Made by a program: the position numbers and the translations under genes | Notes under the pieces: generated by a model | Database searches by the model: none | Told to the model about the DNA's origin: nothing | What the model saw: only the letters and a program-made list of their open reading frames with translations | In this document: positions 15,505 to 53,491 of the stretch, one piece after another | How positions within the stretch are numbered: position 1 is the first letter of the stretch | Layout: each line of letters opens with the position of its first letter | Source: Prolixibacter bellariivorans ATCC BAA-1284 | GTDB taxonomy: Bacteria; Bacteroidota; Bacteroidia; Bacteroidales; Prolixibacteraceae | Length of the DNA: 64,000 nt | NCBI RefSeq assembly: GCF_000621705.1 | Contig: NZ_JHXO01000001.1 | Span: 496,001 to 560,000 of the forward strand | Reading direction: 5' to 3'

Positions 15505-15684
15505 GTAAGGTTATTCTTCTGTTTTATAATTTTCTGATGCAAAGATTGACAAAGTACTTGCTAATACTGACTCTCCAACAATTTATTTTTTGTAGAGTTT
15601 CATTTTATGACAAGTTTTTAAGTTGTAAATTGTAAGTAACACCCCTCAACGCTTTGTTCACCTACATTTTTCGGAGGATAACTT

Positions 15685-18405
15685 ATGAAAGTTTCGTTTA
15701 AGATAGATTATCAAACGGTTTGGGGACAACGGCTATGTGTTTTGGGCTCCCGGCCTGAATTTGGTGAATGGAATCCCGATCGCGCTCTTGAGATGGAGAA
15801 TAACTTTCCCGGCGAATGGGAATTGGTTATCGATGTCGAGCATGTTAAATCGTGGGATTACAAATATCTTATGAAAGACGATGAAGGCGGCGTTCTGTGG
15901 GAATGGGGCGGTAACCGGCATGTCGATCTTTCAGGCGGTCAGTTTGATGAAATTCGCATTCGCGATTTTTGGAGAACATCGCAAGATGTGGAAAATACCC
16001 TCTTTCATTCGGCATTTACCCGTGTGCTGATGCTTCGGAAGCCATCTGATAAGCGTCAGAATCAGCTACATTCTGGTCGCGTTTTGCGGGTTCAGGTGCA
16101 TGTTCCCCGTGTAAATCATCGATATTCGATTGCCTTGCTGGGTAATCGTCCCGGGTTGGGCGCATGGAAAGAGCGGGATGCGCTGGTGATGGATGACTCT
16201 CGTTTTCCGCTTTGGTCGGTTGACATCGACGCTTCTGAATTAAAATTTCCTGTGGAATTTAAGTATGTAGTTTATGACGAGCGCGAGCGAAAGGTGATTT
16301 CGTGGGAAGATGGTAATAACCGGATAATTCGGGATTTCGTCTGCCAGGAGGATAATAGCCTGAAAGTACATACCGATGAGAAGTTCCGTTTCCCGATTGG
16401 CGTTTGGCGGGGAGCTGGTATTTCGTTGCCGGTTTTTTCCATACGGACAGAAAAGAGTGGTGGTATAGGCGAATTTCCTGATTTGAGAATGGTAGTCGAT
16501 TGGGCGAGGAAAACCGGTTTGAAGTTGATCCAGCTTCTTCCGGTAAACGAAACGGTCGCTACGCAAAGCTGGCTCGACTCCTATCCATATAAGGTTATTT
16601 CGGCTATGGCTCTGCACCCGGTTTATGCCAACATCGAATTAATGGGTAACTTGAAGGATGAGAAGACCATGCAGGATTTCCGGGCTCAGCTCTACGAGTT
16701 GAACCAGATGGAGTCGGTTCCTTACGAAGAAGTTCATCGGGTAAAGTCGCGATATTTTAAGCTGCTTTTTGACCAGGAGATGGAAGCATTTCTTAACAGC
16801 CGGGATTTTCGTCTTTTCTTCGAAGAAAACAAAGAGTGGTTGGTGCCGTATGCCGCATTCTGTTTTTTGCGCGATCAGAACAAAACGGCTGCTCACCGGA
16901 TGTGGAAAAAACATGCCATCTATCGTCCGGAAGAGATACAGAAACTTTGCGATCCCTCACAAAAACAGTATCCCGATATTGCCGTTCATTATTTCATACA
17001 GTACCATCTCGACCGGCAACTCCGCGATGCTTCGAACTATGCCCGGAAAAACGGAGTTGTGTTGAAAATCGATATCCCGATAGGTGTTAGCCCCGATAGT
17101 GTAGAGACGTGGACGCATCCGGAGTTGTTTAATCTGGAAGAACAGATAGGCTCACCACCGGATGAAGACGATGATATGGGCCAAAACTGGGGATATCCTA
17201 ATTATAACTGGGAGCGAATGGCATACGACGGTTACGACTGGTGGCGTAAACGGTTACTAAAACTGGGATCATGGTTTGATGCTTACCGGTTGGCTCACGT
17301 TGTTGGCTTTTTCCGCACCTGGGCGATTCCGTCGTCGCAAATGAATGCAGAGATGGGCTGTTTTGTTCCTTCGCTTCCGCTTACGCGTGATGAAATCATC
17401 GATGCCGGAATTAATTTCGTGGAAGAGAGGATGACACGGCCTTTTATCCGTGAATATTTTCTGTGGGATTTGTTTGGCGATTATACCGATGAGGTGAAGA
17501 ATAGGTACCTGGAAGAGTACGGTTCCGGTAAGTATAACCTGAAACCGGGAGTGGATACGCAACGAAAGATTACAGTTCATTTTGAGCAGTTCAAGAAAGA
17601 TGGCAGCCTTCCGGATAAAGAAAACCGGATTATGGAGGGCCTGAATTCTCTTGTGAGCGAGGTTCTATTTTTACGCGATCCGTACGATAGATATAAATTC
17701 CATCCGAGGATTCGCCTTCAGGATACGTACTCGTTTATTAACCTTGATGAAGAGACACGCCACAATTTTGAACAGCTTTATGTCGATTACTTTTATAAGC
17801 GGCACGAAGATTTGTGGCGCGACAATGCCATGATAAAACTTCCGGCATTATTGCGTACTTCCGACATGATGGCCTTCGGTGATGATTTTGGGATGAATCC
17901 CGATTGTGTTCAGCGGATACTCAAAGAGCTGGGTATTCTGACCCTTGAGGTACAGCGCCGACCCCACGATACCGAGGTGGAGTTTGGTCACCCGTCCGAT
18001 GCGCCTTACTTATCAGTTTGCACTACTTCCAGCCATGATATGACAACTATCCGCGGCTGGTGGGAAGAAGACTATGATCGTAGCAAGCGATTTTTTCATA
18101 CCCTGTTAGGACACGCCGGTGAGGTACCTCGTTTTATGGAACCATGGATTGCACGCGATATTATCAGTCAGCACTTGTGGTCGCCGGCTATGTGGGCCAT
18201 ATTCCCATTACAGGATTTGCTGGCCATGGATGGTGAATTGAGGTGGGAGAAAATATGGAATGAACGAATTAATATTCCGGGAATAACCTATTATTACTGG
18301 CGATATAGGATGCATCTGAAAATGGAGGATCTATTGCACTCCGATGGCTTTAATCACACAGTGCTCAGGATGATTGAGCGATCAGGAAGGAATAGTGATT
18401 ATTAA
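15685..18405 (+). CDS. GH77 4-alpha-glucanotransferase-like protein with altered catalytic residues
   Basis: A 906-residue protein of the DPE2/MalQ type: two tandem starch-binding CBM20 domains (about 1-110 and 125-235) followed by a GH77 barrel (about 245-890). Family members disproportionate maltodextrins in glycogen or maltose metabolism. The fold-defining segments are conserved, for example D-I-P-I-G-V near residue 468 and N-W-G-Y-P-N-Y-N-W. However, the nucleophile position, normally R-I-D-H, reads R535-L-A537-H, and the acid/base position, normally G-E-D-L-G, reads G-D733-D-F-G. The third residue, D785 in S-H-D, is kept. It may therefore be inactive or act as a glucan-binding protein. 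ATG 15685 follows a GGAGG sequence. Confidence 0.85.
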   Translation: MKVSFKIDYQTVWGQRLCVLGSRPEFGEWNPDRALEMENNFPGEWELVIDVEHVKSWDYKYLMKDDEGGVLWEWGGNRHVDLSGGQFDEIRIRDFWRTSQDVENTLFHSAFTRVLMLRKPSDKRQNQLHSGRVLRVQVHVPRVNHRYSIALLGNRPGLGAWKERDALVMDDSRFPLWSVDIDASELKFPVEFKYVVYDERERKVISWEDGNNRIIRDFVCQEDNSLKVHTDEKFRFPIGVWRGAGISLPVFSIRTEKSGGIGEFPDLRMVVDWARKTGLKLIQLLPVNETVATQSWLDSYPYKVISAMALHPVYANIELMGNLKDEKTMQDFRAQLYELNQMESVPYEEVHRVKSRYFKLLFDQEMEAFLNSRDFRLFFEENKEWLVPYAAFCFLRDQNKTAAHRMWKKHAIYRPEEIQKLCDPSQKQYPDIAVHYFIQYHLDRQLRDASNYARKNGVVLKIDIPIGVSPDSVETWTHPELFNLEEQIGSPPDEDDDMGQNWGYPNYNWERMAYDGYDWWRKRLLKLGSWFDAYRLAHVVGFFRTWAIPSSQMNAEMGCFVPSLPLTRDEIIDAGINFVEERMTRPFIREYFLWDLFGDYTDEVKNRYLEEYGSGKYNLKPGVDTQRKITVHFEQFKKDGSLPDKENRIMEGLNSLVSEVLFLRDPYDRYKFHPRIRLQDTYSFINLDEETRHNFEQLYVDYFYKRHEDLWRDNAMIKLPALLRTSDMMAFGDDFGMNPDCVQRILKELGILTLEVQRRPHDTEVEFGHPSDAPYLSVCTTSSHDMTTIRGWWEEDYDRSKRFFHTLLGHAGEVPRFMEPWIARDIISQHLWSPAMWAIFPLQDLLAMDGELRWEKIWNERINIPGITYYYWRYRMHLKMEDLLHSDGFNHTVLRMIERSGRNSDY

Positions 18406-18506: not shown

Positions 18507-19247
18507 ATGATGTCAAATCATAATCAGCGTTTCCCCAAAGATGATTTTGATAAACCTTATCGTTCTCACAAAGGGAATCGTCCACTTCTCGGATTGATAC
18601 TCGTCCTGGTAGGAGTTGTTCTTATTGCCGATAATTCAGGAATGATACCTTACTCGGTATCCCGAATTGTTATCAGCTGGCAGATGCTGCTTATCGTAAT
18701 AGGCCTGTTTAATCTGGCCAAACGAGCTGTTACTCCTGGTCTTATTTTAATCGCTATCGGAGGTTTTTTCCTCTTGCCTCGCATTTCAGGTGTCCCCGAT
18801 AATATTGTTTATAATTTCTGGCCGGCTGTGCTGGTCATTGTCGGCCTGGTATTTTTGATGGACCGGACACGGCACGGTTCGAATTTTAAAAAAGGGATAA
18901 ATTCAACTGACTATTTTGACGAAGTCGCTGTGCTTGGTGGTCGTGAAACATCACTGGTAACCGATAATTTTAAAGGCGGAAAAGTGACGACTATTTTTGG
19001 TGGTTGCACATTTAATCTGTTGAAGGCAAACCCGGCAGAAAACTGCACCATCGATATGTTTACGATGTTTGGTGGTTCCAAGTTCATTGTGCCATCCGAT
19101 TGGAACGTGAAAGTGGAGGTCGTAGCTATTCTTGGCGGATTTTCTGACAAGCGCTCTATCTCATTGAGTGAAGTTGATACTAATAAAGTAGTTGTCATAA
19201 AGGGATTTGCTATTTTCGGCGGAGGAGAAGTGGCCAATTTACCTTAA
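18507..19247 (+). CDS. LiaF-like membrane protein
   Basis: A 246-residue protein with an N-terminal cytoplasmic stretch, four hydrophobic helices (about residues 27-46, 52-68, 72-88 and 98-117), and a soluble beta-helical C-terminal domain with repeated G-G motifs (V-L-G-G, I-F-G-G, M-F-G-G, I-L-G-G, I-F-G-G). This matches the LiaF family, where LiaF restrains a cognate sensor kinase responding to cell-envelope stress. It directly precedes a LytS-like kinase and a LytTR regulator, so the three probably form one signalling unit. The G-G repeat spacing is regular, suggesting a right-handed beta-helix. Confidence 0.8.
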   Translation: MMSNHNQRFPKDDFDKPYRSHKGNRPLLGLILVLVGVVLIADNSGMIPYSVSRIVISWQMLLIVIGLFNLAKRAVTPGLILIAIGGFFLLPRISGVPDNIVYNFWPAVLVIVGLVFLMDRTRHGSNFKKGINSTDYFDEVAVLGGRETSLVTDNFKGGKVTTIFGGCTFNLLKANPAENCTIDMFTMFGGSKFIVPSDWNVKVEVVAILGGFSDKRSISLSEVDTNKVVVIKGFAIFGGGEVANLP

Positions 19248-19265
19248 CCATCTAACCACTAACCC

Positions 19266-20336
19266 ATGACTCACCCGTTTATTGCTAACAGGCGTTTTCT
19301 TGTCATATATCTATCGGTCCTGATTGTAATCGGGCTCGGTATCTTTCTGGTATTGGCCTTGAATAATCCGGTGCCCTGGTGGTTTGCCTTTGTCGACAGT
19401 TTTGTCAATATTGTGCTTTTCGGAGGCATGGGATTAGGTGTATGGTATATGGTTGTATATACCGATCCGGATGAAATGAGCCGGTTGCAGTTTTTGGGGA
19501 ATCATATCGCAGCTGCCCTGATATTTATTTCCCTGTGGCTATTTGTTGGAGGAGTAATCGTTCATTTGTTTGTCCAGTCGCCCACTTATTACGGGTTTTA
19601 TGAGAATAGTTATCCCGGCCGTGCCTGGACCTGTCTGCTACTTTATGTCTTGTTGGTCCTGTTTTATTACCTGATTGTTTACTATCGGAATTTCAGGGAA
19701 AAAGTAGAACGCACTGCACAGCTTGAATCGATGGTGAAGGAATCAGAGCTGAAAGCTCTGAAGTCCCAAATCAATCCACATTTCTTATTCAACAGTTTGA
19801 ACTCCATCGCTTCCTTGACGATGACAAGACCTGAGCGAGCCCGCGAAATGGTCGTTTGTCTCTCCGAATTTATGCGATACTCACTTAAAAGTCGTAACGA
19901 AGAAAAAGTCTCTTTAAACCAGGAATTGCACAATATCGAGCTTTACCTAAAAATTGAGAAAGTCCGTTTTGGCCAAAAGTTGATTTATCATTTCGATATT
20001 GAAGAAGAGGCCGGTGAATGTTTGGTTCCTAATCTTATTTTGCAACCGATTTTTGAAAATGCCATTAAATACGGGGTTTATGAAGCGATTGAACCTGTTG
20101 AGATTCGATTGAAGGCGGTGGTGGTCGCTGAATTTCTCGTTTTGGATATTGAAAATGATTTCGATCCGGATACCGTCCCGACAAAGGGTGAAGGTGTTGG
20201 ACTCAGGAATATTGGGAGTCGAATTAGGGTAATGTATGGACGTAGTGGATTACTGGATGTCGAAAAGCGGATGAATACATTTCACGTTCATATGAAAATT
20301 CCTCAGGGTGATTCTGATAAGTCCCAAAGTGTCTAA
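19266..20336 (+). CDS. LytS/YehU-like sensor histidine kinase
   Basis: A 356-residue membrane kinase. Four hydrophobic segments (about 11-33, 38-62, 73-97 and 114-136) are followed by a coiled coil and the His_kinase domain of the LytS/YehU class, with phosphoacceptor H172 in the Q-I-N-P-H-F-L-F-N motif and an ATP-binding part with N-A-I-K-Y-G and G-x-G-L-R-N-I. There is no extracellular sensor domain, so it may sense the membrane or be gated by the LiaF-like protein 18 bases upstream. The response regulator begins shortly downstream. Its 3' end is close to, but does not overlap, the ATG used for that gene. Confidence 0.9.
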   Translation: MTHPFIANRRFLVIYLSVLIVIGLGIFLVLALNNPVPWWFAFVDSFVNIVLFGGMGLGVWYMVVYTDPDEMSRLQFLGNHIAAALIFISLWLFVGGVIVHLFVQSPTYYGFYENSYPGRAWTCLLLYVLLVLFYYLIVYYRNFREKVERTAQLESMVKESELKALKSQINPHFLFNSLNSIASLTMTRPERAREMVVCLSEFMRYSLKSRNEEKVSLNQELHNIELYLKIEKVRFGQKLIYHFDIEEEAGECLVPNLILQPIFENAIKYGVYEAIEPVEIRLKAVVVAEFLVLDIENDFDPDTVPTKGEGVGLRNIGSRIRVMYGRSGLLDVEKRMNTFHVHMKIPQGDSDKSQSV

Positions 20337-20385: not shown

Positions 20386-21138
20386 ATGAAAAAATATCGC
20401 GTCCTTGTTGTTGATGATGAAGATCTGGCTCGTGAATTATTAATTGAATACCTCAAAGAAGACCAGCGTATTGAAGTGATTGGAGAATGTTCTAACGGAC
20501 TTGAAGGTGTTAAGACGGTTCAGGATCTACGCCCTGACCTTGTATTCCTGGATATACAAATGCCTAAGGTAAATGGTTTCGAGATGTTGGAGCTGCTGAC
20601 AGATCCTCCGGAGATAATTTTTTCTACAGCATTTGATCAATTTGCGATTCGGGCATTTGAGATGAATGCTGTTGATTACCTGCTAAAGCCATATCCAATT
20701 GAAAGACTTTCGCAGGCTGTTGATAAAGCCATCGAACGAATCGAGAAAAAGCATACCAACGAATTGCCTGTTGAAAAGTTAGTCAGTGATCACGATGAAC
20801 AGGTGGTGCACGTTGAGCGGATTGTGGTGAAGTCCGGAAGTAAGATCCATATTATACCGGCCAGTGATATCCGGTACATTGAGTCGCAGGATGACTATGT
20901 GATGATATACTGGAAGAATGAACATGCCCTGAAGCAGAAGACGATGAAATATTTTGAAAATCATCTCGATCCGCAGCAATTTATCCGAATTCATCGTTCC
21001 TACCTGGTGAACATATCGCAAATCAGTGAAATTCAACAGTACGAAAAAGAGTCGTGGATTTTGCGTCTTAATGGTGGTGAAAAACTGAAGGTTAGTAAAT
21101 CGGGCTACCGCAACCTGCGGGAGCGTCTGAGTTTTTAA
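20386..21138 (+). CDS. LytTR-family response regulator
   Basis: A 250-residue regulator with a receiver domain at residues 1-120 (acidic pocket D-D-E near 11, phosphoacceptor D56 in F-L-D-I-Q-M-P, switch Thr/Ser in the F-S-T-A motif and K near 104) and a LytTR DNA-binding domain at about 145-250. It is the likely partner of the kinase upstream. A longer in-frame start at 20308 is less likely because the receiver begins M-K-K-Y-R-V-L-V-V-D-D-E. The operon target is unknown; the glucan genes on both sides are candidates. Confidence 0.92.
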   Translation: MKKYRVLVVDDEDLARELLIEYLKEDQRIEVIGECSNGLEGVKTVQDLRPDLVFLDIQMPKVNGFEMLELLTDPPEIIFSTAFDQFAIRAFEMNAVDYLLKPYPIERLSQAVDKAIERIEKKHTNELPVEKLVSDHDEQVVHVERIVVKSGSKIHIIPASDIRYIESQDDYVMIYWKNEHALKQKTMKYFENHLDPQQFIRIHRSYLVNISQISEIQQYEKESWILRLNGGEKLKVSKSGYRNLRERLSF

Positions 21139-21986: not shown

Positions 21987-23933
21987 GTGAGAAGCTGGAA
22001 ATTTAATCCTGTTGAATTTGATAAATACCCTGCTTACGAAGGTAATGATTTAGGGGTTTTCTGGTCTGAGGAAAAGACCATGGTGAAGATTTGGGCTCCT
22101 TCGGCTACTCGCATTTTTTTTCGGTTGTACCGGGAAGGGGTTGGAGGAGATGTTGAGTCTGAGCACGATTTGGAAGGAAGTGAAAACGGCCTCTGGTTGC
22201 TGGAATTGGCAGGCGACTGGAATGGTTGGTATTATACTGTTCAGGTGCGTGATAATAAAGGATGGCTTCTCGAAGGTCCCGATATCTACGCACGTACCAC
22301 TGGAATTAATGGTCATCGTGGAATGATATTTAATCCTGCGGATACGCAGCCGGACGGTTGGTCTGCGGATGAACATGTTCTGCCTGCTTCTCCTACGGAT
22401 ATGATAATTTATGAAACGCATATCCGAGATTTTTCCATGTCTCCCGATTCGGGTATTGAACACAAAGGAAAATACCTGGGATTTACTGAGACGGATACCA
22501 GGTCACCCAAAGGAGTTAAAACCGGAATTGCCCATCTTGATGAGTTTGGGGTGACCCACGTGCATCTGTTGCCTGTTGCCGATTTTTATACCGTTGACGA
22601 AAATAAGGAGACACCTCAGTACAACTGGGGATACGATCCGTTGAATTACAATACTCCGGAAGGTTGGTACTCCTCTAATCCGAACGATGGCAGAGTTCGA
22701 ATTAGGGAACTGAAGCAATTGGTGAAAGCTCTCCATGACCAGGGAATTGGCGTAATTCTGGATGTTGTTTATAACCATACCGGCCTGATCAATGAATCAT
22801 ATTTTAATCAAACGGTTCCCGGTTATTTTTACAGGCAAAAGGATGACGGAAGTTTCTCTGACGCTAGTGGCTGTGGAAATGAGCTCGCTTCGGAGCGGGC
22901 AATGGTGAGGAAGTATATCATTGACTCGCTGATGTATTGGGCCTCCGAATATCATATCGACGGTTTCCGCTTTGACCTAATGGGAGTGCTGGATATCGAT
23001 ACGATGAATGCTATTCGGAAAAGCCTGGATACGATTCATCCAAATATCTTCCTTTACGGCGAAGGCTGGGCTGCTGGTAAAAGCCCTTTAGAGAAAAAGA
23101 AACGGGCTCTTAAAAGACATACCCTGAAACTTGACCGGATTGCCAGTTTTAGCGACGATATGCGCGACGGACTCAAAGGAAGCGCCTTTGACAAATTTAG
23201 TACCGGATTTATCAGTGGTCATACGCTTCAGGAAGAGCGGTTGAAGTTTTCAATGGTTGGCGCAGTGAAGCACGAGCAGATAGCGTACGAATTTGTAGAA
23301 TCTTCTAAAGAGCCCTGGGCCAATGAAGCCGCGCAGTGCATCAACTATGTGTCGTGCCACGACAATTATACGCTGTTCGATAAGTTGCAATATTCTTGTC
23401 CCGAGGCTTCCAAGGTCCAAATTGAGCGAATGGTCCGACTGGCGTTGGGTATTGTCATTACCTCACAGGGAGTTCCCTTTCTGCATGCCGGTTCTGAAAT
23501 GATGCGGACAAAAGGCGGTCATCACGATTCGTACCGCTCGCCCGATTTGCTGAACCAGATTGACTGGAGTCGGAAGAGTGAATTTCACGACTTGTTTGTC
23601 TTTACCCAAAAATGTATTGAACTACGCCGACAGCACCCAGCATTCAGGATGAGTTCTGCAAAAATGATTAATGAAAAAATGCGGTTTGCCGCGAAATATA
23701 TTCCCGGCATTATTCAGTATGAGCTGGGTGAGTATGCCAACGGCGATTCCTGGAAAAACATACAGATGCTGTTCAATGGTAATAACTATTCGGTTGAACT
23801 AGACGTTCCTGAAGCCAATTGGCTGGTCGTTGCTGAGGATGGTGAGATTAATCCTAACGGAATGGGGCGGAGGACTACCGGAAAAGTACGTATTCATCCA
23901 ACTTCGATGATGATTTTGGTTGTCGAAGATTAA
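21987..23933 (+). CDS. pulA: Type I pullulanase (GH13_14)
   Basis: Debranching amylase that hydrolyses alpha-1,6 linkages in pullulan, glycogen or limit dextrins. The 648 residues comprise an N-terminal CBM48-like domain (about 15-130) and a GH13 barrel, with the pullulanase-specific Y-N-W-G-Y-D-P motif (about residue 212). The catalytic residues are intact: nucleophile D330 (F-R-F-D), acid/base E359 (G-E-G-W) and transition-state D459 (C-H-D-N). No signal peptide is seen, so it acts in the cytoplasm on storage or imported glucans. It starts at GTG 21987. Its stop codon overlaps the stop of the convergent ald-like gene. Confidence 0.93.
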   Translation: MRSWKFNPVEFDKYPAYEGNDLGVFWSEEKTMVKIWAPSATRIFFRLYREGVGGDVESEHDLEGSENGLWLLELAGDWNGWYYTVQVRDNKGWLLEGPDIYARTTGINGHRGMIFNPADTQPDGWSADEHVLPASPTDMIIYETHIRDFSMSPDSGIEHKGKYLGFTETDTRSPKGVKTGIAHLDEFGVTHVHLLPVADFYTVDENKETPQYNWGYDPLNYNTPEGWYSSNPNDGRVRIRELKQLVKALHDQGIGVILDVVYNHTGLINESYFNQTVPGYFYRQKDDGSFSDASGCGNELASERAMVRKYIIDSLMYWASEYHIDGFRFDLMGVLDIDTMNAIRKSLDTIHPNIFLYGEGWAAGKSPLEKKKRALKRHTLKLDRIASFSDDMRDGLKGSAFDKFSTGFISGHTLQEERLKFSMVGAVKHEQIAYEFVESSKEPWANEAAQCINYVSCHDNYTLFDKLQYSCPEASKVQIERMVRLALGIVITSQGVPFLHAGSEMMRTKGGHHDSYRSPDLLNQIDWSRKSEFHDLFVFTQKCIELRRQHPAFRMSSAKMINEKMRFAAKYIPGIIQYELGEYANGDSWKNIQMLFNGNNYSVELDVPEANWLVVAEDGEINPNGMGRRTTGKVRIHPTSMMILVVED

Positions 23934-46049: not shown

Positions 46050-47993
46050 ATGAGTTATCTGAAATTTGATAAACAGCAGTTAGTCAATCTGGAGTATTCG
46101 CTACAGCGCGAATTCTTACGTACCAACCGGGCCGGAAGTTATTCTTCATCTACGCTTTCTGGTTGTAATACGCGAAAGTATCATGGTTTGCTCATTACTC
46201 AGCTGAACGAGCTGGATGGTGGTAAGCATGTACTCCTTTCATCGTTGGATGAAACCGTTATTCAGCATGATGCAGAATTTAACCTCGGGCTTCATAAGTT
46301 TCCTGGTGATCACTACGAACCTCGGGGACATAAGTATATAAGAGATATTGAGTTTGAAAAGATATCGAAAGTCACTTATCGGGTTGGCGGTGTTATTTTG
46401 TCGCGAGAGCGGATATTAGTGGAAAAAGAAGAACAGTTGCTGATTCGGTATACACTGGAAGATGCGCACAGCCCAACTACGCTTCGGTTCAAACCATTTC
46501 TGGCCTTCCGGAATGTGCATACTTTGAGTAAAGCCAATATGTTTGCTAACACTCGTTACGTCCCGGTCGAAAACGGGATTAAGATGCGTTTATACGAAGG
46601 GTACCCTTTTCTGCATATGCAGTTCTCCAAAGAGGTCGATTTTGTTCCGTTTCCAGATTGGTACTACAACATCGAGTACATGAAGGAACAAAAACGCGGT
46701 TATGAATTTCAGGAAGACCTTTTTGTTCCCGGGTATTTTGAGCTCCCGATAGAAAAGGGCGAATCCATTGTTTTTTCAGCGTCAACTGCTGAAGAGAAAC
46801 CTAGTGGATTTAAACGCCGGTTTACCAATGAGACGAAGAAAAGAACGCCCCGCGATTCGTTTTCAAATTCGTTGCTTAACTCGGCCCAACAGTTTCTCTG
46901 TGTCCGAAATGATGGTGAGGACATCATTGCCGGTTATCCGTGGTACGAGTCGGTGCCAAGGCAAACGTTTCTGGCCATTAACGGTGTACTCCTGCTTCAG
47001 GGAAATTTGAAGACGTATGAGTCGATTCTAAAAACGCAGATGAAGCGACTGAAAGATGGTCTTTTTCCCAAATATGTTGGCTCAGGTGAAAGTGATTATG
47101 ATGCCGCAGATGCGCCTTTGCTTTTCTTTACCAGTGTGCAGGAATTGAACGATTTTGTGGAGAAGAAGGAGTTATGGGAAAAGTATGGAAAGGCCATGAA
47201 AGGTATTCTTTCGAATTACCGGAAAGGAACCCGTTTTAACATTCACATGCAGGACGACGGTTTAATTTATGCCAAAGCTGAAGACGTTGCTCTGACCTGG
47301 ATGGATGCCTATGTGGATGGAAAACCAGTTACTCCGCGGGGAGGCTTAGCTGTCGAGATCAATGCGCTTTGGTTCAATGCCGTTTCGTATGCGCTTGAAC
47401 TGGCCGATGCGGCGGGGGACAAAGCCTTTGTTGAGGAATGGAAGAATCTGCCGGGAAAAATTGCTGCGGCATTTGTCAGTACATTCTGGTGCGATGAAGA
47501 AGAGTATCTGGCTGATTACGTCGATGGTGATTATAAGGACTGGTCGGTACGACCGAATATGTTGTTTGCCACATGTTTGCCTTATTCTCCGATATCGCGC
47601 GAGCAGAAGAAATCAATTGTCAGTAGGGTGAGAAATGAATTACTTACGCCAATGGGCTTACGTTCATTGTCGCCAAAAAACCCGGAATACCTGGGAATTT
47701 GCGACGGAGATCTGCCGACCCGCTCTCTGGCGGTGCATCAGGGGTCAGTTTACCCGTTTTTTATCGGCCCGTTTATCAAAGCTTACATCGGAATTCATAA
47801 GATGGGAGGGATGTCGTTTGTGAAGAATATTATGGAATCCTTTGAAGAAGAAATGACGGAACATTGTATTGGTACACTTTCCGAGATGTATGACGGAAAT
47901 CCCCCGCATGAAGCCCGGGGAGCAGTTTCTCAGGCATGGAACGTGGGCTCCATTTTGTCGGCCATTGCTTTTGTCGAGAGTTATGGAGAGTAA
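46050..47993 (+). CDS. Glycogen debranching enzyme (amylo-alpha-1,6-glucosidase type)
   Basis: A 647-residue protein with an N-terminal beta-sandwich domain (about 1-240, GDE_N) and an (alpha/alpha)6 barrel (about 270-640). It removes alpha-1,6-linked branches of glycogen. The barrel has D-Y-D-A-A-D-A-P-L-L-F-F, T-W-M-D-A-Y-V-D and P-R-G-G-L-A-V-E-I-N-A-L-W, the motifs expected to hold the acid and base residues. No signal peptide. It is the first gene of a four-gene glycogen cluster on the plus strand. Confidence 0.93.
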   Translation: MSYLKFDKQQLVNLEYSLQREFLRTNRAGSYSSSTLSGCNTRKYHGLLITQLNELDGGKHVLLSSLDETVIQHDAEFNLGLHKFPGDHYEPRGHKYIRDIEFEKISKVTYRVGGVILSRERILVEKEEQLLIRYTLEDAHSPTTLRFKPFLAFRNVHTLSKANMFANTRYVPVENGIKMRLYEGYPFLHMQFSKEVDFVPFPDWYYNIEYMKEQKRGYEFQEDLFVPGYFELPIEKGESIVFSASTAEEKPSGFKRRFTNETKKRTPRDSFSNSLLNSAQQFLCVRNDGEDIIAGYPWYESVPRQTFLAINGVLLLQGNLKTYESILKTQMKRLKDGLFPKYVGSGESDYDAADAPLLFFTSVQELNDFVEKKELWEKYGKAMKGILSNYRKGTRFNIHMQDDGLIYAKAEDVALTWMDAYVDGKPVTPRGGLAVEINALWFNAVSYALELADAAGDKAFVEEWKNLPGKIAAAFVSTFWCDEEEYLADYVDGDYKDWSVRPNMLFATCLPYSPISREQKKSIVSRVRNELLTPMGLRSLSPKNPEYLGICDGDLPTRSLAVHQGSVYPFFIGPFIKAYIGIHKMGGMSFVKNIMESFEEEMTEHCIGTLSEMYDGNPPHEARGAVSQAWNVGSILSAIAFVESYGE

Positions 47994-48028
47994 AGTCAGT
48001 TATGAAACCCCTTAAATCGCAGAGCTGA

Positions 48029-49342
48029 ATGAAAGTATTAATGTTCGGATGGGAATTCCCTCCCCATATCAGTGGCGGACTCGGAACAGCCAGTTATGGA
48101 CTCACCAAAGGATTGGCCCATTATGATGATGTGAATGTTCTTTTTGTTGTACCCAAAGCGTACGGGGACGAGGATCGTTCGGCTGTGGATGGAATTATCG
48201 GTGCCGGAGACGTGCCCATTACCCGTAAGCAAGTTAGTTTTGAAGATCTGCAGAAAAAAGTTGAATATTTTGAAGTCGACTCTTCGTTAATTCCCTATGT
48301 CGGGGAGGAGGAATTTTACCGACTTACGCAACAGAAAGTTAATTCACGCTCTCGTTTTATCCAAACCGATTCACAAGGACGTTTGCCTTTTACAGGAAAA
48401 TACGGCAGCGATTTATTACAGGAAATTGCCCGTTATGCTGTCGTGGCCGATGTGATTGCACAGGAGAATGAATTTGACCTGATTCACGCGCACGACTGGT
48501 TGGCCTATCCGGCCGGAATTGCAGCGAAGAAGGCCAGCGGTAAGCCTTTGGTAATACACGTACATGCCACCGATTTCGACCGCTCAGGTGGTAGTGTCAA
48601 TCCCAATGTGTACGCTATCGAGCGTGAAGGAATGGAGGTGGCAGACAAGGTAATTACCGTAAGTAATCTTACCCGGAATATCGTAATTGAAAAATATGGA
48701 ATCGACCCAGCCAAAGTAGTGACCGTTTACAATGCAGTTGAACCGGTCGAACGCACGCCAAGGTTGGGCGTCAACAAGGGAGTCGATGAAAAAATTGTGA
48801 CGTTTCTTGGGCGTATCACTATGCAAAAGGGACCTGAATATTTTATCGAGGCAGCTCACCAGGTATTGCGGCGAATGGATAATGTTCGGTTTGTGATGGC
48901 TGGCAGTGGGGATATGATGAACAAAATGGTGAAGCGTGCAGCACAACTTGGTATAACCGATCGGTTTCATTTTACCGGTTTCCTCAAGGGAGACGATGTA
49001 TTCGATATGTTCCGCCTTAGCGATGTATATGTGATGCCATCAGTATCCGAACCGTTTGGTATTTCACCGCTCGAAGCGATGATGTCTGATGTTCCGGTAA
49101 TTATTTCCAAACAATCGGGGGTCGCCGAAATTCTTACACACGCTATCAAGGTCGATTTCTGGGATATCAATGCTATGGCCGATGCCATATATTCAATATT
49201 ACAATATCCGGCTTTACCCAAAATGTTTAAAAAGCATGGTCGGATTGAAGTGGATCACTTGCAATGGCGCCATTCAGCGGCCCATGTTCGTCAGGTTTAT
49301 TTATCCGCTTTAGGTCAGTCAAACAACAACAGTAACGCGTAA
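48029..49342 (+). CDS. Glycogen synthase-like glycosyltransferase (GT4/GT5)
   Basis: A 437-residue GT-B glycosyltransferase. It opens with the nucleotide-sugar binding start W-E-F-P-P-H-I-S-G-G-L-G (residues 9-20) that typifies starch/glycogen synthases, has the H-A-H-D-W motif, and in the second half an F-x-G-R-I-T-x-Q-K-G-P-E-Y motif and the E-x7-E signature in S-V-S-E-P-F-G-I-S-P-L-E-A. The sequence suggests chain elongation from a UDP- or ADP-glucose donor; the donor cannot be read from sequence. It sits between debranching enzyme (35 bases) and GH57 gene (12 bases). Confidence 0.9.
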   Translation: MKVLMFGWEFPPHISGGLGTASYGLTKGLAHYDDVNVLFVVPKAYGDEDRSAVDGIIGAGDVPITRKQVSFEDLQKKVEYFEVDSSLIPYVGEEEFYRLTQQKVNSRSRFIQTDSQGRLPFTGKYGSDLLQEIARYAVVADVIAQENEFDLIHAHDWLAYPAGIAAKKASGKPLVIHVHATDFDRSGGSVNPNVYAIEREGMEVADKVITVSNLTRNIVIEKYGIDPAKVVTVYNAVEPVERTPRLGVNKGVDEKIVTFLGRITMQKGPEYFIEAAHQVLRRMDNVRFVMAGSGDMMNKMVKRAAQLGITDRFHFTGFLKGDDVFDMFRLSDVYVMPSVSEPFGISPLEAMMSDVPVIISKQSGVAEILTHAIKVDFWDINAMADAIYSILQYPALPKMFKKHGRIEVDHLQWRHSAAHVRQVYLSALGQSNNNSNA

Positions 49343-49354
49343 AAAGTTAGCCAT

Positions 49355-50737
49355 ATGAAATCCGTTTGCTTGTATTTTCAGATTCATCAGCCGTTCCGTT
49401 ACCGGAAATACCGCTTCTTCGACATTGGTAACGACCACTATTATTATGATGATTATGCCAATGAAACCATCCTGAGGAAGGTGGCAAACAATTGTTATTT
49501 ACCGGCTAACAAAGTGTTGCTGGAACAGCTGAAAAAGCATAAAGGTAAGTTCAAGGTGGCATTGTCCATCTCCGGGATTGCCCTGGAGCAATTCGAACTG
49601 TATGCTCCCGAGGTATTGCACTCATTTCAGGAACTGGCCGAAACCGGTTATGTGGAGTTCTTATCCGAAACTTACTCCCACTCACTTGTTTCACTATTCG
49701 ATGGTGAATCGTTTGAAAAACAGGTGAAGGATCATGACGATAAAATAGAGGCTTACTTTGGTCAGCGTCCTTCCGTTTTCCGGAATACCGAAATGATCTA
49801 TTCCGATGAAATCGGTGATAGGGTGTACAAAATGGGTTTCAAAGCCATGTTGACGGAGGGAGCGAAACATGTGCTGGGATGGAAGAGTCCCAATTTCCTT
49901 TATTGCAATGCCATTAATCCCCGGCTGAAAGTATTGATGCGGAACTACAAACTCAGTGACGATATTTCTTTCCGTTTTTCCAATAAAGCATGGAACGAAT
50001 ATCCACTGACCGCTGAGAAATTCCTCAAATGGATGAGTGAGCTCGATAAAAATGAGGAGATGGTTAATCTTTTTATGGATTATGAAACGTTTGGAGAGCA
50101 CCAAACCGCGGATTCGGGCATTTTAAATTTCCTGAAAAGCCTTCCGGAGACTATCTTGAAGAATGGTTCTTTTACGTTCGATACTCCGTCGGAAATAATT
50201 GAAAAATACCAACCAATTTCAGCCGTACATGTTCCACATCCCATTTCATGGGCTGACGAGGAGCGTGATCTTTCGGCCTGGTTGGGAAACGAATTGCAGG
50301 AAGAAGCTTTTGGTAAATTATACGATTTGAAGGAGCGAATGCTGCGTTGTTTCGACCCCGTAATGATTAAAGATTGGAACTACCTGCAAATTAGTGACCA
50401 TTTTTACTACATGTGTACCAAGTTCTTTTCTGATGGAGAGGTACATAAGTATTTCAATCCTTACGCTAGTCCTTACGAAGCATTCATCAACTATATGAAT
50501 GTATTGAGTGATTTTAGAATCCGACTTAACGCGCTTGTTCCCGAATCGGATATCGACCGCGAAATTGCCGCGTTAAAAGAGGTGATTGATGAGAAGGACG
50601 ATCGGCTAAGTAAAGCCGAAGATGAGGTGAAGACTCTGAAAAACAAACTCAAGGAAGCCAAAGGGGCTGTGCTTCCGAAAGTTGAAAAGAAGAAAACAAC
50701 GGGTAAGACAAAAACGAAAAGTAAATCGGCAAAATAG
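49355..50737 (+). CDS. GH57 family alpha-glucan hydrolase
   Basis: A 460-residue GH57 enzyme. The conserved regions are present: I-H-Q-P (residues 10-13), the F-R-N-T-E-M motif with nucleophile E146, and M-D-Y-E-T-F-G-E-H with proton donor D242. Members of this subgroup in Bacteroidetes are annotated as alpha-amylases, but 4-alpha-glucanotransferase or branching activity is equally compatible. A coiled coil (about 405-440) and a short Lys/Thr/Ser-rich tail end the protein. It is 12 bases after the glycogen synthase gene, so these act together on glycogen. Confidence 0.88.
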   Translation: MKSVCLYFQIHQPFRYRKYRFFDIGNDHYYYDDYANETILRKVANNCYLPANKVLLEQLKKHKGKFKVALSISGIALEQFELYAPEVLHSFQELAETGYVEFLSETYSHSLVSLFDGESFEKQVKDHDDKIEAYFGQRPSVFRNTEMIYSDEIGDRVYKMGFKAMLTEGAKHVLGWKSPNFLYCNAINPRLKVLMRNYKLSDDISFRFSNKAWNEYPLTAEKFLKWMSELDKNEEMVNLFMDYETFGEHQTADSGILNFLKSLPETILKNGSFTFDTPSEIIEKYQPISAVHVPHPISWADEERDLSAWLGNELQEEAFGKLYDLKERMLRCFDPVMIKDWNYLQISDHFYYMCTKFFSDGEVHKYFNPYASPYEAFINYMNVLSDFRIRLNALVPESDIDREIAALKEVIDEKDDRLSKAEDEVKTLKNKLKEAKGAVLPKVEKKKTTGKTKTKSKSAK

Positions 50738-50813
50738 AAAAACCTGCATCAGACCAGACTCTCTATTCAAACCTATGTTCTTGTAATTTAACGTACAGGT
50801 AATTTGTAATGTC

Positions 50814-50831
50814 TAAATTGCATGCAATTTA
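50814..50831. promoter_or_regulatory. 18-bp perfect palindrome upstream of the phosphorylase
   Basis: TAAATTGCA followed directly by TGCAATTTA, a perfect inverted repeat with no spacer, about 70 bases before the phosphorylase ATG. The symmetry and position suit a dimeric repressor or activator site. I see no second copy near the other glucan genes. Confidence 0.45.
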
Positions 50832-50899
50832 TCGTGTGAACGTAGTTGACCCATTATTAACCGAACTCTTACAAATGGAGAGTTAAATGAATACCAATC

Positions 50900-53491
50900 A
50901 TGGAAAAACAAGGAGTGAGATTTGTAAAATTACCTGATAACGCTGAACCAACCTGGAAAAAAATAATAGTTGAGTCCAATGTCCCGGAATTATTAGAACC
51001 GCTGAGGGTGATTTCAAGGAACCTTTGGTGGAGTTGGAATGATGATGCGCGGAAACTTTTCGAGGAAATCGATCCCGAAATCTGGGAACAAACAGCACAC
51101 AACCCTATACAGTTACTCGAAGAGACAAGTCTTGAGCGGTTCAGTGAACTGGAAGCGGATATGTCTTTTATTCTCCGCATGAAAGAAGTAGAAGCTCGTT
51201 TAAGTCAATATCTTAATGAGCGGAAAGAGTTATTAGGGCCGAAAGTGGCATACTTCAGTATGGAGTACGGCCTGCATACCAGCCTGAAGATTTATTCCGG
51301 CGGCTTGGGAATTCTGGCAGGTGATTACCTGAAGGAGGCCAGCGACTCAAAAGTGGAAATGGTGGCAGTTGGATTGCTGTACCGATTCGGTTATTTCAAG
51401 CAAACAATATCTGCCAACGGTGAGCAGGTGGCTCATTACGAAGCCGAGCATTTTACCCATATCCCGGTACAACCGGTAATGGATGAAAACGGTAACTGGG
51501 TGACCATTACCATTGAAATGCCGGGGCGGACAGTTCTGGCGCAGGTGTGGAGTGTCAATGTTGGTTCCGTGAAACTATTCCTGCTCGATACCGATTTGGA
51601 AGCGAACCAGGAGCAGGATCGTTTCATTACCCACCATCTGTATGGTGGCGACAACGAGAATCGTTTGAAGCAAGAGATGGTGCTTGGTTTAGGAGGTATC
51701 AGGGCACTGGAAAAAATGGGGATATCGGCAGAGATTTATCACATCAACGAAGGTCATGCCGCATTCATTGGTTTGGAGCGGATGTGGAATCTGCAGCAGA
51801 AAGCCAATCTTACTTTTGCTGAAGCGAAAGAAGCTATTCGTGCGTCAAACCTCTTTACTACTCATACGCCGGTTCCTGCCGGACACGATGCGTTCCACGA
51901 CGATTTATTCCGTGCTTACATGGAGAAATTCACCGACCGTTTGGGTATTTCGTGGGATGAATTTGAAATGTTGGGTAAGACCAATCCGCACGAGGACCAT
52001 TTCAATATGAGTTTTCTGGCCGCTAATCTTTCAGAACGTATTAACGGTGTAAGTCGTTTGCACGGAAGAGTGAGCCAGGAACTATTGGTAGAACTGTATA
52101 AAGGGTTTCTTCCGGAAGAGTTGGAAAATGTTGGTTATGTGACTAATGGAGTGCACTATCCGACCTGGGCAGCCCCAGAGTGGAGGAAAATTCATGAGAA
52201 ATTCCTGAAGGAAGAGCTTCCGGAAGATATTCATGATTATGATGAAGCTTCAGAAGCTCGTGCCTGGAAGAACATATACAAGGTAGAAGATGGTGTTATC
52301 TGGAATACCAAATCGACGTTGCGTGCCCGGTTGATTGAATACATCAAGGAGCGGTTTACCGATACCCACATTCAGCGTAACGAAAATCCAAAGTTTATTG
52401 CCGAAGCTCTTTCGAAGCTGAATCCGAACGCCCTGACCATCGGTTTTGCCCGGCGTTTTGCTACGTACAAACGGGCGCATCTTATTTTCCGTAACCTCGA
52501 TCGGCTGGATAAGATTGTGAATAATCCAGAGCGACCGGTACAATTTATTTTTGCCGGTAAAGCGCACCCGGCCGATAAAGCTGGTCAGGATTTGATCAAG
52601 TATATCATGGAGATATCCAAGCGACCGGAGTTTGTTGGGAAGATTTTGTTTATCCAGAATTACGACATGAATCTCGCCAAGATTATGGTGCAGGGCTGTG
52701 ATGTGTGGATGAACACCCCGACACGTCCGTTGGAAGCTTCCGGTACTTCGGGCGAGAAAGGGGTGATGAACGGTACATTACACTTCTCGGTGCTCGATGG
52801 CTGGTGGGTCGAAGGTTATAAAAAGGATGCCGGATGGGCACTTAATGAAGAACGCTCGTTCGACATTCAGGACCTGCAGGACGAATTGGACGCTGAAAGT
52901 ATTTACAGTACGCTCGAAAACGAAATCATTCCGGCTTATTATTACCGGAACGAAAAAGGTGTGCCGGTCCTTTGGGTCGATTTTATTAAAAATACATTTG
53001 CCGAAGTGGCTCCCTATTTCACTACACGCCGGATGATGCGCGATTATTTCGACCGCTTTTATATCAAACAGGCTGAGCGTTCAAAGGGTATTGTTGCGGA
53101 AGATTATCGGCATGCACGTGATATGGCACAATGGAAAGCAAAGGTGTCGGGCGTATGGAGCGATATTGAGGTAGTAAACGTGCAACTGGCCGACGGTATT
53201 ACGAATTCCTATAAAATGGGGCAGGATTATCCGTCGAAGGTTGTCCTTGACTTGAAAGGACTGACACCTGAGGAAGTTGGCGTGGAGATGATTGTCGTTA
53301 CGTCTGACGAACCTGTAGAGTTTGTACAGAAGCAGGAATTTACGCCGGTGAAAACGGAAAACGGAATGACGCATTATCAGCTGGATCTCAATCTGAAACA
53401 GTCGGGAACTTTCAACTATGGTTTGCGGGTTTATCCGAAGAATGAGAATCTGGCGCACCGTCAGGATTTCCGCTACCTGAGATGGATTTAA
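50900..53491 (+). CDS. glgP: Alpha-glucan phosphorylase (GT35)
   Basis: Releases glucose 1-phosphate from the non-reducing ends of glycogen or maltodextrins. The 863 residues include the N-terminal domain of the short bacterial subfamily, S-G-G-L-G-I-L-A-G-D-Y-L-K-E-A-S-D-S near residue 133, H-I-N-E-G-H, and the PLP-binding motif A-S-G-T-S-G-E-K620-G-V-M-N-G. The G-E-K-G variant is typical of this subfamily rather than of the MalP type. A palindrome at 50814 and a bidirectional terminator at 53511 flank the gene. Confidence 0.95.
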   Translation: MEKQGVRFVKLPDNAEPTWKKIIVESNVPELLEPLRVISRNLWWSWNDDARKLFEEIDPEIWEQTAHNPIQLLEETSLERFSELEADMSFILRMKEVEARLSQYLNERKELLGPKVAYFSMEYGLHTSLKIYSGGLGILAGDYLKEASDSKVEMVAVGLLYRFGYFKQTISANGEQVAHYEAEHFTHIPVQPVMDENGNWVTITIEMPGRTVLAQVWSVNVGSVKLFLLDTDLEANQEQDRFITHHLYGGDNENRLKQEMVLGLGGIRALEKMGISAEIYHINEGHAAFIGLERMWNLQQKANLTFAEAKEAIRASNLFTTHTPVPAGHDAFHDDLFRAYMEKFTDRLGISWDEFEMLGKTNPHEDHFNMSFLAANLSERINGVSRLHGRVSQELLVELYKGFLPEELENVGYVTNGVHYPTWAAPEWRKIHEKFLKEELPEDIHDYDEASEARAWKNIYKVEDGVIWNTKSTLRARLIEYIKERFTDTHIQRNENPKFIAEALSKLNPNALTIGFARRFATYKRAHLIFRNLDRLDKIVNNPERPVQFIFAGKAHPADKAGQDLIKYIMEISKRPEFVGKILFIQNYDMNLAKIMVQGCDVWMNTPTRPLEASGTSGEKGVMNGTLHFSVLDGWWVEGYKKDAGWALNEERSFDIQDLQDELDAESIYSTLENEIIPAYYYRNEKGVPVLWVDFIKNTFAEVAPYFTTRRMMRDYFDRFYIKQAERSKGIVAEDYRHARDMAQWKAKVSGVWSDIEVVNVQLADGITNSYKMGQDYPSKVVLDLKGLTPEEVGVEMIVVTSDEPVEFVQKQEFTPVKTENGMTHYQLDLNLKQSGTFNYGLRVYPKNENLAHRQDFRYLRWI

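Follow-up and report, generated by a model that had tools for sequence, protein, structure and literature searches.

The closest described systems are the DPE2 proteins of plants and bacteria, in which two N-terminal CBM20 domains are followed by a GH77 domain interrupted by an insert, and the MalQ/amylomaltase enzymes, which share the GH77 barrel. Arabidopsis DPE2 is described as a dimer whose CBM20-1 binds starch and which requires the residues of the GH77 triad, Asp-563 and Asp-810 having been changed to Ala or Asn (PMC3789958); from the spacing of these positions (563 to 810 there, 537 to 785 in the protein described here) we infer that Asp-563 is the nucleophile. A study of T. thermophilus amylomaltase names D293, E340, D395 and the 250s loop, and describes a D293A/D395N protein that was inactivated yet crystallised holding cycloamylose (PMC8465469).

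In plants, alpha-glucan metabolism includes known pseudoenzymes, which belong to multi-isoform families. The non-enzymatic beta-amylases BAM4 and BAM9 of Arabidopsis regulate glucan turnover (PMC8774843), and the noncatalytic isoamylase subunit ISA2 is kept in a complex with ISA1 (PMC12510319). No report of a GH77 pseudoenzyme was found in the literature searched, which comprised titles and the starts of abstracts; the survey of GH77 and bacterial DPE2 by Kuchtova and Janecek (2015) lies outside that scope and may hold variants. The terms 'pseudoenzyme' and '4-alpha-glucanotransferase' together returned a single paper, which concerns Giardia encystation, and the first 300,000 characters of a review from 2024 on the alpha-glucan enzymes of prokaryotes (PMC11046441) do not mention DPE2.

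The case described here concerns the sole DPE2 found in four Prolixibacter genomes. Its nucleophile has been lost and its binding modules have been kept, and selection has been maintained while the adjoining regulators decayed in one species. Closely related orthologues with an intact triad exist, and the protein may offer a clean natural separation of glucan binding, as predicted from its domains, from catalysis.

Domain architecture and catalytic positions

The window, the whole 64,000-nucleotide stretch of Prolixibacter bellariivorans DNA that was analysed, contains the following features of the gene, with the basis of each assignment in brackets.

15673..15677, + strand: GGAGG, a Shine-Dalgarno-like sequence 7 bases 5' of the ATG (read from the sequence)
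15685..18405, + strand: predicted catalytically dead DPE2 (CBM20-CBM20-GH77), 906 aa (open frame, domain search, orthologue alignment)
15688..15927, + strand: CBM20 domain 1, residues 2-81 (domain search)
16078..16383, + strand: CBM20 domain 2, residues about 132-233 (second domain-search stretch, with limits from the strands of the AlphaFold2 model)
16426..18315, + strand: GH77 barrel match, residues 248-877, split by the DPE2 insert (domain search and Foldseek)
17068..17070, + strand: I462, beside the retained D463 (Gly in 153 of 164 distinct sequences, the others being 6 gaps, 4 Ile and 1 Ala)
17167..17169, + strand: D495, replacing Phe in the 250s loop (alignment)
17293..17295, + strand: A537 (GCT), nucleophile position (alignment, codon read)
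17323..17325, + strand: A547 (GCG) of W-A-I-P, not diagnostic (alignment, codon read)
17380..17859, + strand: central region carrying the DPE2-type insert, approximately residues 566-725 (alignment, limits set by eye)
17881..17883, + strand: D733 (GAT), acid/base position (alignment, codon read)
18037..18039, + strand: D785, third carboxylate, retained (alignment)

The 906-residue protein scored 425 bits against the GH77 model (PF02446), for which the curated cut-off is 25, and the match covered 460 model positions over 630 residues. Together with the two N-terminal CBM20 domains and the insert this is the architecture of DPE2, with which the protein shares domain order and full-length homology. 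Sequence and predicted fold alike pointed to GH77 amylomaltases as the nearest solved relatives of the barrel, and the best 33 Foldseek matches of the predicted model were all GH77 chains. The MalQ of the same genome differs from it in having 495 codons that align to the barrel only and in keeping the triad.

An AlphaFold2 model of the protein reached a mean pLDDT of 85.6 and a pTM of 0.83, and identical values were obtained for an orthologue with an intact triad (L035), although the same 22 sequences were used in both runs and the control is not independent. The block at residues 731-740, which contains D733, had a pLDDT of 66 vs 76 in the orthologue. Since the two models were equal in overall confidence and their weak loops (two in number) were nearly identical, the prediction suggests no hint of a damaged fold.

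Alignment with orthologues 38-57% identical to the protein and with solved amylomaltases placed residues 537, 733 and 785 at the nucleophile, the acid/base and the third carboxylate, respectively. Where orthologues carry R-I-D-H, G-E-D-L-G (or A-E-D-L-G) and H-D, the Prolixibacter protein carries R-L-A-H, G-D-D-F-G and H-D, so that the Asp, Glu, Asp triad of GH77 reads Ala, Asp, Asp. A first-pass annotation of this DNA, made from its letters alone, had described two CBM20 domains, a whole GH77 barrel, replacement of the nucleophile Asp by A537 and of the acid/base Glu by D733, and retention of D785; the domain search, the codons and the alignments agree with it on each of these points. The same annotation had counted the W-A-I-P motif as a further mark of inactivity, which we rejected. 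W-A-I-P is normal in MalQ, being present in the MalQ of all four genus genomes alongside intact R-I-D-H and A-E-D-L-G motifs, and position 547 is variable in DPE2 (135 E, 11 Q, 6 S, 5 A, 3 V and 4 gaps among 164 distinct sequences, genus included).

We then considered the 172 positions with a conservation of 95% or more across 53 other sequences, a set from which rows L002, L056 and L065 had been excluded beforehand. Thirteen of these near-invariant positions were changed in all four genus members, and all 13 lie in the barrel; none of the 39 such positions in the CBM20s and the insert was changed in all four. Another 5 were changed in only some of the four. The 13 barrel changes, which set the protein apart from other DPE2, include D537A and E733D and, absent from the first-pass annotation, F404H, G462I, F495D, I545T, C731F, M759R and K761H. 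Along the sequence the 13 positions were not significantly clustered near the catalytic residues (p 0.065-0.11), nor were the 11 left when A537 and D733 were omitted (p 0.27-0.36). Retained in all four genus members were Y302, D463, W502, R535, H538, H784 and D785, which we take to be sugar contacts, as in amylomaltase structures. Near the active-site motifs, D/N493, A/V547 and F/L735 still vary within the genus, as does position 490. By motif reading D493 appears to align with D249 of the T. thermophilus enzyme, whose change to Ser left very low activity (PMC8465469).

The predicted catalytic death of Prolixibacter DPE2 is well supported. A weak or altered transferase, in which Asp-733 would act as acid/base and another group or water would replace the nucleophile, might draw on the retained D463, R535, H784 and D785, and a Prevotella protein described below likewise has an acid/base Asp, with its nucleophile kept. 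Against it, plant DPE2 requires the triad residues (PMC3789958), the T. thermophilus mutant that was inactivated carries D293A (PMC8465469), and the 250s loop is altered too; we regard residual transfer of this kind as quite improbable. Some other activity, relying on catalytic residues that have moved, is conceivable.

Orthologues, copy number and evolutionary rates

Orthologues were collected from 140 family genomes, named genome contigs and 295 order genomes, with 57 extra stretches fetched for order matches and 20 for family members, and a 98.5% identity cut left 164 distinct orthologues or fragments. The triad read D-E-D in 150, A-D-D in 4 and D-D-D in 1, and was incomplete at one or more positions in 9. 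The combination of an Ala nucleophile and an Asp acid/base was thus confined to 4 of 164 sequences, and these came from exactly the four Prolixibacter genomes, which were all the genus genomes in the search. Their proteins are 89.5-98.3% identical in pairs. A sequencing error behind A537 and D733 is unlikely, because both residues are identical in 4/4 genomes despite saturated synonymous sites between two sub-lineages.

The single D-D-D sequence is a DPE2-like protein of Prevotella sp. RGIG8140 (L056:110-2041), matched from query residue 240 onward only, in which the acid/base is Asp, the nucleophile is kept and the 250s loop is altered. It is possibly an independent step towards loss.

Each of the four genus genomes contained two GH77 matches, the 906-aa-type protein and the 495-codon MalQ, so that one canonical malQ with intact motifs accompanies the altered gene in 4/4 genomes. 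A second CBM20-GH77 gene was not found in the four. The order folB-glnS-MatE-GH77-LiaF-LytS-LytTR is largely common to g10 and g3, the two genera nearest to Prolixibacter, where the triad is intact, so the DPE2 of these genera shares its neighbours with the Prolixibacter gene, which is present in a single copy. Further out in the family, in six of six stretches, DPE2 lacked all the other neighbours that it has in the window. Because the gene shares its place with an intact-triad DPE2 and only two GH77 matches occur per genome, we regard it as the same gene with no extra copy, and the simplest reading is that the sole DPE2 of the genus was converted in place, with no duplication. Here the locus departs from the plant examples. 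BAM4 and BAM9 belong to another enzyme family with multiple isoforms, and plant BAMs have no CBM, whereas Prolixibacter appears to have converted its sole DPE2; ISA2 pairs with its paralogue ISA1. These plant proteins have active relatives of their own enzyme kind alongside them, whereas in the four genus genomes no active counterpart of the dead DPE2 was found, only the distant MalQ.

Evolutionary rates were then compared. Nei-Gojobori dN/dS for the six genus genome pairs was 0.028-0.081, with only four genomes available and dS saturated (above 1.5) in four of the six pairs. In the two unsaturated pairs the pseudoenzyme gene gave 0.081 and 0.043, and its neighbours gave 0.078 and 0.054 (pulA), 0.101 and 0.035 (MatE) and 0.045 and 0.058 (glnS). 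The reading frame runs uninterrupted from end to end in 4/4 genus genomes. The length of the genus stem divided by that of the remaining tree was 0.285 for this gene and 0.113-0.417 for ten neighbouring genes, in trees of 9-15 taxa per gene with differing taxon sets, and no whole-gene acceleration on the stem was seen against those ten. The protein shows the sequence hallmarks of a pseudoenzyme: an essential catalytic residue replaced, an intact protein and purifying selection.

Within the gene the rates were uneven. On the genus stem the barrel-to-CBM20 ratio of branch lengths was 1.07 vs 0.40 over the whole tree (about 2.7-fold); of the 16 branches that exceeded 0.15 in length, none had a higher ratio (0.72 came second). 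Inside the genus the ratio was 0.86, and in the two nearest genera 0.40 and 0.34. The barrel is less constrained than in relatives, yet far from neutral.

A pseudogene in slow decay, intact by chance, would be compatible with this loosening of the barrel relative to the CBM20s. We consider it highly improbable: the frame is open throughout in 4/4 genomes, dN/dS stands at 0.03-0.08, and in one genome (G114, below) the adjoining genes decayed by deletion and the pseudoenzyme gene did not. The first-pass annotation had taken the gene to encode a maintained pseudoenzyme and not to be in decay, and the intact frames, the low dN/dS, the lack of acceleration relative to the neighbours and the separate MalQ uphold that view. 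DPE2 also appears patchy in the family. A DPE2-level match (E <=1e-50, counted by hand) was present in 54/140 family genomes, not all of them complete, and many lineages seem to have no DPE2; that Prolixibacter nevertheless keeps a dead one we count as support for a maintained role.

The pattern of barrel changes might alternatively reflect a re-purposed pocket, in which a different ligand would be bound or converted by way of H404, D495, R759 and H761 together with the retained D463, R535, H538 and D785. All 4/4 genomes share these replacements, and almost every canonical orthologue has a different residue there; the barrel also changed in a burst on the stem, after which dN/dS was low. Positions 490, 493, 547 and 735 still vary in the genus, however, which looks like relaxed constraint, and nothing indicates that a new catalytic set has been assembled; this reading seems to us unlikely, if worth keeping in mind. 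We are about equally doubtful of a more specific version, in which the sole DPE2 would have been converted without duplication and its former active site, with H404, D495, R759 and H761 fixed, would serve as a ligand or regulatory pocket controlling glycogen turnover.

Neighbouring genes and a possible role in glucan turnover

Downstream of the pseudoenzyme gene lie three regulatory genes and a pullulanase.

18507..19247, + strand: LiaF-like membrane protein, gone in one pseudoenzyme-bearing genome (domain search, neighbourhood comparison)
19266..20336, + strand: LytS-type histidine kinase (domain search, neighbourhood comparison)
20386..21138, + strand: LytTR response regulator, start at an internal ATG (domain search, neighbourhood comparison)
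21987..23933, + strand: Type I pullulanase, candidate partner, co-oriented neighbour in 4/4 genus genomes (neighbourhood comparison)

The first-pass annotation had proposed a sensory link to the LiaF/LytS/LytTR trio, and the arrangement at first sight would suit a glucan sensor or input for these regulators: LiaF starts 101 bases after the pseudoenzyme stop codon on the same strand, and the adjacency is kept in the two nearest genera. There, however, the trio adjoins DPE2 with an intact triad, following the gene in 10/11 stretches (the contig of the eleventh, L073, ends after LytS), and in 6/6 stretches from more distant family members it is not beside DPE2. In the Prolixibacter genome G114 (L066:10854-11290), LiaF, LytS and LytTR are represented by short fragments only, apparently left by several deletions, between an intact pseudoenzyme gene on one side and, downstream, a hypothetical gene and the pullulanase on the other. 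No close copy of LytS was found elsewhere in G114, where the best match was 33% identical. The pseudoenzyme of this genome is full length and 94% identical to the window protein. Pseudoenzyme and trio are therefore not always kept together, the trio being fragmentary in 1/4 genomes, and because the neighbours decayed while the pseudoenzyme in the same locus did not, G114 supports maintenance of the protein and opposes its dependence on the trio. The sensory link thus finds little favour here, and we consider it very unlikely.

The association with pullulanase, conserved throughout the genus, was present in only 5/11 stretches from the two nearest genera. A lost glucan pathway, which could have accounted for a dead DPE2, was not seen. 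Phosphorylase, GH57, MalQ and pullulanase are each present in 4/4 genus genomes, and a debranching enzyme is encoded in the window.

From the domains and changed residues we infer a glucan-binding, scaffold or regulator job in intracellular alpha-glucan turnover. The sole DPE2 would have been converted in place in the genus ancestor by the changes of nucleophile Asp to Ala and acid/base Glu to Asp, after which the glycosyl-enzyme intermediate could not form and disproportionating activity would be absent, that chemistry being left to MalQ. Less certainly, the CBM20s would dock on a glycogen-like glucan, and the dead cleft could perhaps hold maltodextrin chains without turnover. The docked protein might then scaffold or regulate the active glucan enzymes; candidate partners are MalQ, the debranching enzyme, phosphorylase and the pullulanase encoded nearby. 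The reading as a whole, that a single-copy DPE2 turned into a pseudoenzyme ahead of the divergence of the four species and now works as a glucan-docked scaffold or regulator of active glucan enzymes, we judge to have about an even chance of being right.

Further along the window, positions 46050-53491 hold an alpha-glucan cluster comprising a glycogen debranching enzyme, a GT4/GT5-like glycosyltransferase, GH57 and a DUF3417-type glycogen phosphorylase. The search for a GT3 glycogen synthase came back empty in 7/7 genomes (G000, G112, G113, G114, G084, G027 and G001) despite the presence of phosphorylase and GH57 genes, an absence that is not specific to the pseudoenzyme since three of the seven have an intact DPE2 triad. 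The strongest GT5 match in 6/7 of those genomes was a short frame of 269-292 codons.
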